A stretch of DNA of 61,780 nt from Mariprofundus sp. KV (lineage in GTDB: Bacteria > Pseudomonadota > Zetaproteobacteria > Mariprofundales > Mariprofundaceae): NCBI RefSeq assembly GCF_013387475.1, contig NZ_VWNB01000015.1, forward strand, positions 1 to 61,780. Reading direction: 5' to 3'. Each line of letters opens with the position of its first letter. Within the stretch, counting starts at the first letter, position 1. Shown one piece after another: positions 47,188 through 49,712 of this stretch. Made by a program: the position numbers and the translations under genes. The notes under the pieces were generated by a model, which had not been told where the DNA came from, did not search any database, and saw nothing but the letters and a program-made list of their open reading frames with translations.

Positions 47188-47417
47188 ACCAGTACTTAAA
47201 TGTGGATCTGGAATCGTCCTGTCTCCTTGATAGGGCTAACTTATACGTATATCGGTGAAATAAGCCTGAGCTTAAGCTTTATCTGCTTAAACTGCAGCAT
47301 TGCTCCACACCTTGCAATTACGCTCTCCTCCTGCTGCTTCAGTTTACCTGAATTTATGCGATAATGAGTAAGGAGGTTGCGGCTGCATGTTAATCAGCCA
47401 GATCTCAGGAGAATGTG

Positions 47418-47957
47418 ATGGCGATTACAATTCCCGGCTATAGCACTGCCAATGCGACTCTTCTTCCACAGAAGGGTGTAGCAGAGCAAGGCAAAGCTTC
47501 TGCGCTTCCGGCGGCTGTTCAGGCTAAACTTGATAACCGTATGAGTCTGAATGCGGCAAACAACCCTACCGCGTTGATTTTGCAGGCGGCACAGGAGAAG
47601 ATAAACGAGATGTTTAAACCCTATCTCGGTGACGGGGCGGTCCAGCGCGCTGTTGATTCTGATCTGGATATGAGTCCGGAAGCGACAGCTGAGCGGATCA
47701 TCAGTTTTGCAACCCGGTTGATCGGAAGTGCTGAAAATGTGCAGTCTGAGCTGCCAGTCGATGAGCAGCGTTCCAGAGAGCAGCTGTTTAATAACGTGAA
47801 GATTGGTGTCGAACGTGGTTTTGAGCAGGCACGGGATATTCTTGAAAGTATGAAGGCGCTGGAAGGGGGTGTAAAAGAGACCGTCGATACCACCTACAGC
47901 CGCGTACAGGAGGGGCTCTCTGATCTGGCCCTGCTGCTTGGCCTTTCACCTGCCTGA
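47418..47957 (+). CDS. DUF5610-like protein
   Basis: A 179-aa protein with a disordered N-terminus and a helical domain of about 120 residues. The segment DMSPEATAERIISFATRLIG and the later EQLFNNVKIGVERGFEQARDIL match the DUF5610 family as I know it; that family is seen mainly in motile or surface-living proteobacteria and its function is not established. AGGAG lies 6 bases before ATG 47418; a GTG directly before it is less likely. Confidence 0.65.
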   Translation: MAITIPGYSTANATLLPQKGVAEQGKASALPAAVQAKLDNRMSLNAANNPTALILQAAQEKINEMFKPYLGDGAVQRAVDSDLDMSPEATAERIISFATRLIGSAENVQSELPVDEQRSREQLFNNVKIGVERGFEQARDILESMKALEGGVKETVDTTYSRVQEGLSDLALLLGLSPA

Positions 47958-48169: not shown

Positions 48170-48251
48170 GAAAATCTGTATTATATTAGATGTTGATAAT
48201 ATAATGAAATCATTCTATTGTTCGCTGCCAATTGTAGGTACGGAGGAACAG

Positions 48252-48848
48252 ATGGACAGAATTAATACGGCAACGCGCGTTCTGCATTTTTTATTTATTG
48301 TGACCGTGGTGTTTCAGCTTGGTAGTGCGCTGGTAATGCGCGTGCCTGAACCGGGCAAAATGGTGATCTGGGCGAATGTTCTCTTTTCATGGCATATCAT
48401 GTTTATCGGCTGGACCGCTTACCTGCTCAGCTTTATCTACGCCATGACCCGTTTTGCCGATAAGGAGGCCTGGGGTCGTCTGGTGCCATGGTTCTCGAAA
48501 AAGCATCGTGCAGCCTTTTATAAGTCGGCCAGAGAGGAGTTGCCAGGTATCTTCACCGGTAAGCTTGCACTGCCTGAAAAACGTACCGCACTGGCTGGTG
48601 CCATGCACGGTCTCGGCTTCCTGACGCTGATTGCACTGGGGACGACAGGAGCCTACGTCATGAACGGGGTGCGTTCTGACGGTAGTATGACTATGGATAT
48701 GTTGTTCATGTTTAATCTGCACGAGTTTTTTGGCGTTGTGATCTATGTGTTCATTGCATGCCACGTATCTATGGTGCTTTACCATCTTCTGCTTGGGCAT
48801 AAGAGAGTTCTCGATATCTTCGAGCGTCCCAACATCAGATGGAAGTAG
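48252..48848 (+). CDS. Cytochrome b561-like membrane protein
   Basis: A 198-aa protein with four hydrophobic segments. Histidines that could bind heme b lie in ATRVLHFLF, FSWHIMFIG, NLHEFFGVVIYVF and ACHVSMVLYHLLLGH, in the pattern of bacterial cytochrome b561/NapC-like b-type membrane cytochromes. It should pass electrons between quinol and a periplasmic partner. GGAGG at 48242-48246 lies 5 bases before ATG 48252, so the 16 extra upstream codons are rejected. The next gene begins 11 bp after its stop and is surely co-transcribed. Confidence 0.8.
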   Translation: MDRINTATRVLHFLFIVTVVFQLGSALVMRVPEPGKMVIWANVLFSWHIMFIGWTAYLLSFIYAMTRFADKEAWGRLVPWFSKKHRAAFYKSAREELPGIFTGKLALPEKRTALAGAMHGLGFLTLIALGTTGAYVMNGVRSDGSMTMDMLFMFNLHEFFGVVIYVFIACHVSMVLYHLLLGHKRVLDIFERPNIRWK

Positions 48849-48859
48849 GGAGAGTGAAT

Positions 48860-49660
48860 ATGAATTTTCATAAGCGTGGTTTTGTTGGCCTGATATTCTC
48901 AATTGCCCTGCTGGCAGTGCAGGTGAAGGCAGTGGCCGATGAGCCGAAAGCTGGCGATGTGATGACCGATGAGTTTGGTATCGAGTTCGTCTACATTGCA
49001 CCGGGCAAGTTCATCATGGGTACGCCAGAGGGTGAATTTGGACGTTATCCCGATGAGGAGCAGCACGAAGTTGAGATCAAGAAAGGCTTCTGGCTGGGTA
49101 AGTATGAAGTCACATTCGAGCAGTATGATTACTTCTGCAAGAAGACCGGTAATGCCAAAGCCCGCGATGAGAAGTGGGGTCGTGGTAATCGTCCTGCGAT
49201 CCATGTCAAATGGCAGGATGCTCAGATGTATGCTGACTGGCTTACCAAAAGGGCAGGCCAGAAGTATCGCCTGCCGACAGAAGCTGAATGGGAGTATGCA
49301 GCCCGTGCAGGTACGACAACCGCCTTCTCCTGGGGTGAAGATCCCACTGCGTTTTCCGAGTATGCATGGAATAGCAGCAATGCGGATAAGAAGACTCATC
49401 CGGTTGGTCAGAAGAGGCCCAATCCCTGGGGACTCTACGATATGCATGGCAATGTCTGGGAGTGGACTGGTTCTTACTACAAACAGGAGTGGGACGGTTC
49501 CGAGTTAAAGTACAGTGAGACAAAATCCAACAAAGATCGCTCTGTTCGTGGTGGTGCATGGTATCGCTTCCCCAAGGATATGCGTTCGGGTGACCGTCGG
49601 GTCTTCCATCCGCGTTATCGCCTGCCATATATTGGTTTCAGACTGCTTCGCGAACAGTAA
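48860..49660 (+). CDS. Secreted FGE/SUMF1-fold protein lacking catalytic cysteines
   Basis: A 266-aa protein with a signal peptide (MNFHKRGFVGLIFSIALLA) and a complete formylglycine-generating-enzyme fold: FIMGTPEGEFGRYPDEEQHEV, YEVTFEQYDYFCKKTG, RLPTEAEWEYAARAGT, NPWGLYDMHGNVWEWT and RSVRGGAWYRFP. The two catalytic cysteines of true FGE, expected in the segment after RGGAW, are absent; the only mature cysteine is in DYFCKK. It is therefore not a sulfatase-activating enzyme and may be a binding or scaffold protein working with the b561-like partner. Confidence 0.85.
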   Translation: MNFHKRGFVGLIFSIALLAVQVKAVADEPKAGDVMTDEFGIEFVYIAPGKFIMGTPEGEFGRYPDEEQHEVEIKKGFWLGKYEVTFEQYDYFCKKTGNAKARDEKWGRGNRPAIHVKWQDAQMYADWLTKRAGQKYRLPTEAEWEYAARAGTTTAFSWGEDPTAFSEYAWNSSNADKKTHPVGQKRPNPWGLYDMHGNVWEWTGSYYKQEWDGSELKYSETKSNKDRSVRGGAWYRFPKDMRSGDRRVFHPRYRLPYIGFRLLREQ

Positions 49661-49683: not shown

Positions 49684-49712
49684 AAGGGCTACTTTTAAGT
49701 AGCCCTTTTTTT
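49684..49712 (+). terminator. Terminator of the b561/FGE-fold pair
   Basis: A perfect 10-bp stem AAGGGCTACT/AGTAGCCCTT with a 4-base loop runs into a T-tract. It starts 24 bp after the FGE-fold gene. Confidence 0.92.

Follow-up and report, generated by a model that had tools for sequence, protein, structure and literature searches.

A conserved cytochrome b561/FGE-fold gene pair associated with aa3-type oxidase in Mariprofundus and relatives

Introduction

The closest described counterparts of the locus presented here are PvdO and FGE/SUMF1 for one of its two proteins and the prokaryotic cytochromes b561 (PF01292) for the other. With PvdO, a periplasmic FGE-fold protein that has a redox role is already known. 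PvdO is needed for the last oxidation of pyoverdine formation, the purified protein has no detectable cofactor and is inactive, and it may require further components, for example electron-transport systems (PMC6206403). On the respiratory side, M. aestuarium CP-5 and M. ferrinatatus CP-8, both of which lack cbb3, are described as unusual in having an aa3-type oxidase, which also occurs in M. micogutta (PMC5513912). The same study ties the use of aa3 instead of, or beside, cbb3 in iron oxidisers to their oxygen niche (PMC5513912).

Here, we analyse a gene pair in a stretch of 61,780 nucleotides (hereafter the window), which is contig 6 of the 2.53-Mb genome of Mariprofundus sp. KV (G000). An initial annotation, made from the sequence of the window, had described a cytochrome b561-like protein encoded next to a secreted FGE-fold protein without catalytic cysteines, and had suggested that the two form a new redox pairing. 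No published pair of a b561 and a formylglycine-generating-type protein was found in the open-licence literature.

Results

Organisation of the gene pair

The features of the locus are as follows.

48183..48203, + strand: palindromic box ATATTAGNNNTTGATAATATA, putative operator of the pair (from conservation)
48252..48848, + strand: b561-type membrane protein (Ni_hydr_CYTB/PF01292, 7e-16), 198 aa, about four membrane helices
48860..49660, + strand: FGE-fold protein, predicted to be exported, without the FGE catalytic cysteines, 266 aa (PF03781, 1.9e-50)
49684..49707, + strand: stem-loop resembling an intrinsic terminator (10 pairs, of which 5 are GC), with a T run behind it

Re-reading the sequence bore out the coordinates, the gene order, the 11-bp distance from the b561 stop codon to the ATG of the FGE-fold gene and the presence of a terminator-like stem behind the pair, all as initially annotated. 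The scanned stretch holds three terminator-like sites against 2.1 expected from shuffles, and the stem at 49684–49707 is the longest of them. A mechanical ORF list gives earlier start codons for both genes, at 48204 (b561) and 48839 (FGE-fold). The pair is flanked by a DUF5610 gene on one side and by glycogen phosphorylase on the other, and the b561 and FGE-fold genes are best explained as one operon and one functional unit. The DUF5610 protein (PF18433, 5e-25) is encoded at 47415–47957 of the window, just 5' of the pair; its gene is also kept in G001 and is absent upstream of the pair in G008.

The FGE-fold protein is closest to PvdO

With 172.3 bits for PF03781 against a cut-off of 23.3, the second protein of the pair is a member of this Pfam family. 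Its AlphaFold2 model has a mean pLDDT of 93.1 and a pTM of 0.88, and the nearest solved fold is that of PvdO (5hha; TM 0.82, Z 34.4, rmsd 1.9 over 238 aligned residues with 35 % identity). The N-terminus is hydrophobic (best 19-residue window from residue 8, mean hydropathy 2.18) and is followed by an Ala-x-Ala-type end, so that a Sec signal is likely. Judged by hydropathy only, the protein is therefore likely exported, in agreement with its initial description as secreted.

The columns of the FGE catalytic cysteines, assigned in the alignment from the human FGE motif, hold R/F and M/L in all nine pair members and a cysteine in none (0/9). The sole cysteine of the protein, Cys93, is not conserved. 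The proposal of an FGE fold devoid of active-site cysteines was thus confirmed, and it is at these columns that the pair member differs from FGE/SUMF1, with which it has the Pfam domain and the fold in common. A role as sulfatase activator was rejected on the missing catalytic cysteines (9/9). The EgtB reading was rejected as well: PF03781 is the single Pfam match at E ≤ 10, a DinB-type N-terminal domain like that of EgtB, OvoA and SenA was not found, and the EgtB model scores 73.9 bits versus 360. The absent cysteines and the absent DinB domain together support the earlier statement that the protein is neither of the two. Loss of the cysteines as a mark of distinction was rejected, since only 1/45 aligned relatives from other bacteria has both; these relatives were drawn from 80 FGE loci, of which 46 were checked for an open frame, with one dropped for lacking it and the other 34 unused.

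PvdO resembles the pair protein in its FGE fold, in having no cysteine at the catalytic columns of the alignment, in its periplasmic location, which is predicted for the pair protein, and as the best structural match. The pair protein nevertheless scores 152.5 bits with the NCBIfam PvdO equivalog, below the cut-off of 500 bits, and differs in having a b561 as its operon partner. No pyoverdine genes were seen in the neighbourhoods annotated. A heme motif, a conserved cysteine or another cofactor site, flavin included, is not visible in its sequence. In a tree of 77 leaves the FGE-fold proteins of the pairs form an exclusive clade (support 0.991), and six residues invariant among them are rare among relatives (Y45, N171, Y235, K239, D245 and R247). 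In G023, the FGE partner (L150:15839-17359) is fused to an N-terminal caspase-like domain in which the position expected to hold the catalytic Cys reads Ser (LDASR).

Further FGE-fold genes were noted in two of these genomes. G023 encodes another FGE protein fused to a TIR domain (L158:6206-7651), and a second FGE-fold gene of the window's genome (L157:5997-6893; G000:C22) is next to genes for a DUF3641/radical-SAM protein and a methyltransferase.

The b561 is related to those of oxidase islands

The first protein of the pair scores 58.9 bits for PF01292 against a gathering cut-off of 30.1, which places it in the family, and hydropathy indicates hydrophobic segments at about residues 3–33, 37–66, 111–132 and 148–184. 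His 12, 48, 119, 157, 171 and 178 are present in 9/9 pair orthologs and in 7/7 paralogs from oxidase islands; His183 is found in 9/9 and 6/7, respectively. These conserved histidines are candidate heme ligands on the predicted membrane helices. Among 47 sequences, the b561s of the pairs form a single clade (support 0.997), nested in a clade (0.994) whose remaining members are exclusively b561s of oxidase islands. Descent of the pair b561 from b561s encoded in such islands is the best explanation of this topology. In its domain score and invariant histidines it is a regular prokaryotic cytochrome b561; it differs in having no adjacent hydrogenase or multiheme cytochrome partner, in its FGE-fold partner gene and in its kinship to the b561s of aa3 islands.

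Elsewhere in the class, b561s of the same family are encoded directly 3' of argininosuccinate synthase in three genomes (L153, L154, L155). The family seems to be used differently there.

The pair is conserved in nine genomes of the class

Orthologs of the b561 (49–96 % identity) and of the FGE-fold protein (55–91 %) occur in the same nine of 80 related genomes and are adjacent in all of them. Counted over the class, 9/78 genomes have a b561 ortholog, each with an adjacent FGE gene; the search for the FGE partner covered the 80 relatives, that for the b561 also 25 further class genomes. Beyond the nine carriers, no b561 of more than 37 % identity was found in the 78 class genomes or in a 398-genome phylum sample that includes class members. 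The intergenic gap measures 7–14 nt at the eight loci other than that of G012. The initial annotation had made its proposal depend on the two genes being found together elsewhere, and they lie side by side in 9/9 carriers; with both proteins in exclusive clades, the b561/FGE pair is real.

A general b561–FGE pairing across bacteria was considered and rejected, as none of 80 FGE loci has a pair-type b561. An FGE fragment accompanies one of 26 non-pair b561 loci, that of G186, and this is the one genome with an adjacent FGE among the 14 that lie outside the class and match the b561 weakly. There (L263:3-1235(-)), the gene of a distant b561 precedes that of an FGE-fold fragment, which lies at the contig end. 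This neighbourhood is a possible independent pairing; chance adjacency is possible too, because genomes of that family can carry many FGE genes (23 matches in G078).

Co-occurrence with the aa3-type oxidase

An aa3-type cytochrome c oxidase is present in all nine carriers. With the COX1 of G034 as reference, 11/78 class genomes encode a COX1 of 71 % identity or more; nine of these 11 have the pair, and the b561 is present in 0/67 of the other class genomes. G036 and G045 have the aa3 oxidase without the pair, which is therefore not essential for the oxidase. In G027, a twelfth genome, the COX1 reaches 51 % and there is no b561 of this kind. A phosphoglucose-isomerase (PGI) tree of 30 genomes, which does not include G034, G036 and G045, unites the seven carriers of the window's genus in one clade. 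The co-occurrence thus amounts to about three lineages and not nine events, and nine independent co-occurrences were rejected on the basis of this tree.

In two carriers, G034 and G023, which belong to two other genera, the pair is located inside the oxidase island (2/9). The G034 island encodes COX3, SCO, COX2, COX1, a CyoE-like prenyltransferase, PCu(A)C, a GyrI-like protein, a short cupredoxin, further b561s and CtaA, and that of G023 encodes COX1, a UbiA-type prenyltransferase, a cytochrome c and another b561; not each of these genes was typed in both. Within the window's genus, pair and oxidase are tens of kilobases apart (about 75 kb in G008 and 87 kb in G012, from coordinates) or on separate contigs. 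In G000, the oxidase island lies on another contig (C26) and contains a b561 paralog and no pair; a cbb3 oxidase is also encoded in this genome. Overall, the association between the pair and the aa3 oxidase is fairly well supported.

Cox11 and SURF1 are standard aa3 assembly factors. Searches that were positive in control genomes detected neither Cox11 (PF04442) nor SURF1 (PF02104) in the 11 aa3 genomes. Since G036 and G045 also lack both, the pair cannot be their sole replacement. Its suggested task, maturation or upkeep of the aa3-type oxidase, would be analogous to that of Cox11/CtaG and SURF1, whereas the protein families involved are different.

A palindromic box upstream of the pair recurs at a regulator gene

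The AT-rich palindrome ATATTAGNNNTTGATAATATA (48183–48203) overlaps a perfect TATAAT (48200–48205). With 0–1 mismatches it lies upstream of the pair at 8/9 loci, the exception being G034, where the best match has 6 mismatches. Among the matches listed from 21 scanned genomes, seven sites have no mismatch, all of them at the pair. At ≤3 mismatches the pattern gave 0 to 7 matches per strand and genome, and reversed-pattern controls gave 0 to 3.

In six pair carriers of the genus (G000, G001, G008, G012, G016 and G020), the ATG of an ArsR-family gene is preceded, at 24–25 bp, by a similar box (1–2 mismatches), and copies with 1–2 mismatches also lie near related genes in G023 and G028. No such regulator was found at threshold in G019, and G034, G036 and G045 have poor boxes (3–5 mismatches). 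As a control, 2000 random AT-rich stretches of 150 bases were taken from 11 sequences: the best match had 2 or 3 mismatches in none of them and 0 or 1 in 106, which are presumably pair boxes left in the pool.

The ArsR-family product matches YgaV (4e-14) and BigR (3e-12). It scores 80.6 against 55 in the ArsR/SmtB subfamily model and stays below the NCBIfam BigR equivalog (57.4, cut-off 155 bits), and its cysteines are at positions 32, 40, 98 and about 102. In E. coli, YgaV responds to sulfide and acts on genes of respiration (PMC11858517). From its sequence and conservation, the box is likely the operator of the pair, and we infer that the regulator binds it because a copy lies in the regulator's own promoter. 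In G000 the regulator gene (L236:2161-2490(-); G000:C2:25663-25989) is followed by a TolC-type gene, with a divergent ABC-transporter gene beside it. The initial annotation could reveal neither the aa3 link nor this palindrome common to the pair and the YgaV/BigR-like regulator gene; the aa3 link is new here.

Single box copies were found near a thioredoxin-like gene (G030) and a glutaredoxin-like gene (G023). A promoter element common to the pair and the oxidase genes was sought and not found, and the oxidase islands contain no good box copy save the pair's own in G023. Upstream of ccoN, a gene of the cbb3 oxidase encoded in G000, a weak copy (3 mismatches) lies at a distance of about 35–55 bp (L240:4839-4895; G000:C4); it may be due to chance.

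Discussion

The pair travels with the aa3-type oxidase and so would probably be a redox helper of this enzyme. We consider it quite possible, if somewhat short of probable, that the two genes are a functional unit which, in some members of the class (Mariprofundus and relatives), serves the branch ending in the aa3-type cytochrome c oxidase. The b561 would take electrons from the quinone pool, presumably with quinol as donor, and make them available on the periplasmic side of the membrane. Its exported partner, the FGE-fold protein, would work in the manner of PvdO or of other FGE-fold proteins without the cysteines, as a periplasmic binding or oxidoreductase module that docks or treats the client, in the role of docking or substrate partner. 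With Cox11 and SURF1 absent, the likeliest client would be the oxidase, or else the chaperones that insert its cofactors; the aa3 islands themselves encode SCO, PCu(A)C and CtaA. Expression would probably be gated by an ArsR repressor of the YgaV/BigR kind, putatively sensing thiol or reactive sulfur, and with such a repressor the module would come into play when the oxidase is under redox or sulfide stress. Electrons might also pass from the b561 to the FGE-fold protein, which has no visible cofactor site.

Several observations weigh against a module for the aa3 oxidase: seven of the nine carriers are one clade, pair and oxidase genes are unlinked in the lineage of the window, the box is missing at the island-borne pair of G034, the FGE-fold protein has no visible cofactor site, and the b561–FGE neighbourhood of G186 may have no link to an oxidase. 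A more specific version, in which the pair is an undescribed redox-powered maturation or rescue device that builds or protects the heme-copper centre where Cox11 and SURF1 are missing, with the reactive-sulfur-type repressor as its switch, seems to us rather unlikely.

Our findings raise the question of how aa3 oxidases of this kind are built when Cox11 and SURF1 are missing. A conserved b561/FGE unit that tracks aa3 provides a named, testable gene pair for oxidase assembly and for the oxygen-niche question. It would also serve as a model for the route that electrons take in PvdO-type FGE-fold proteins, a matter on which the PvdO report touches (PMC6206403).

The new redox pairing suggested at the outset may exist: seven histidines are invariant in the nine pair b561s, but the FGE-fold protein shows neither a heme motif nor a conserved cysteine. 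Its most direct form, in which the b561 hands electrons to the FGE-fold protein itself, a PvdO-like periplasmic oxidoreductase acting on a small-molecule or protein substrate unrelated to the oxidase, is unlikely in our view. PvdO is nearest in fold and in sequence, and the report on it raises the question of a possible electron-transport partner (PMC6206403); together with the invariant histidines, this is what speaks for such a transfer. The same scheme has to do without any visible heme, flavin or cysteine site, Cys93 being unconserved, and it leaves the oxidase link unexplained. Equally unlikely, as we see it, is a division of labour in which all redox activity lies with the b561, which might for instance provide an additional path from quinol to cytochrome c and into aa3, and in which the FGE-fold protein acts as an adaptor or scaffold with no enzymatic role. 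PorK/GldK and variable proteins use the FGE fold as a structural or binding module, and the FGE-fold protein of the pair matches PorK and a Treponema variable protein; the G023 partner, with its caspase-like domain bearing Ser for the catalytic Cys, is built as a scaffold might be. The residues Y45, N171, Y235, K239, D245 and R247, however, could equally line an active pocket.

Common inheritance must also be weighed, with one clade and two relatives accounting for all co-occurrence and the pair serving reactive-sulfur or thiol stress under the ArsR-family regulator. That seven carriers are one clade agrees with it, as do the box that ties the pair to the YgaV/BigR-like regulator gene and the box copies near the thioredoxin-like and glutaredoxin-like genes. 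We regard it as decidedly unlikely, given that the pair sits inside the oxidase island in two other genera and that the pair b561 appears to be derived from island b561s. These last two points fit the reading that we favour, a functional unit serving the aa3 branch.

The aa3 islands also encode a heme-copper-oxidase-superfamily protein of 454–455 aa (L149:12599-13966, L151:5120-6484(-), L152:5859-7226(-)). Two of these were typed, with PF00115 at about 1e-12 to 1e-17. The gene lies beside CtaA with a short cupredoxin gene nearby, in G034 NnrS is encoded close to it, and the ligand motifs of its product are unlike those of the aa3 COX1 from the same island.
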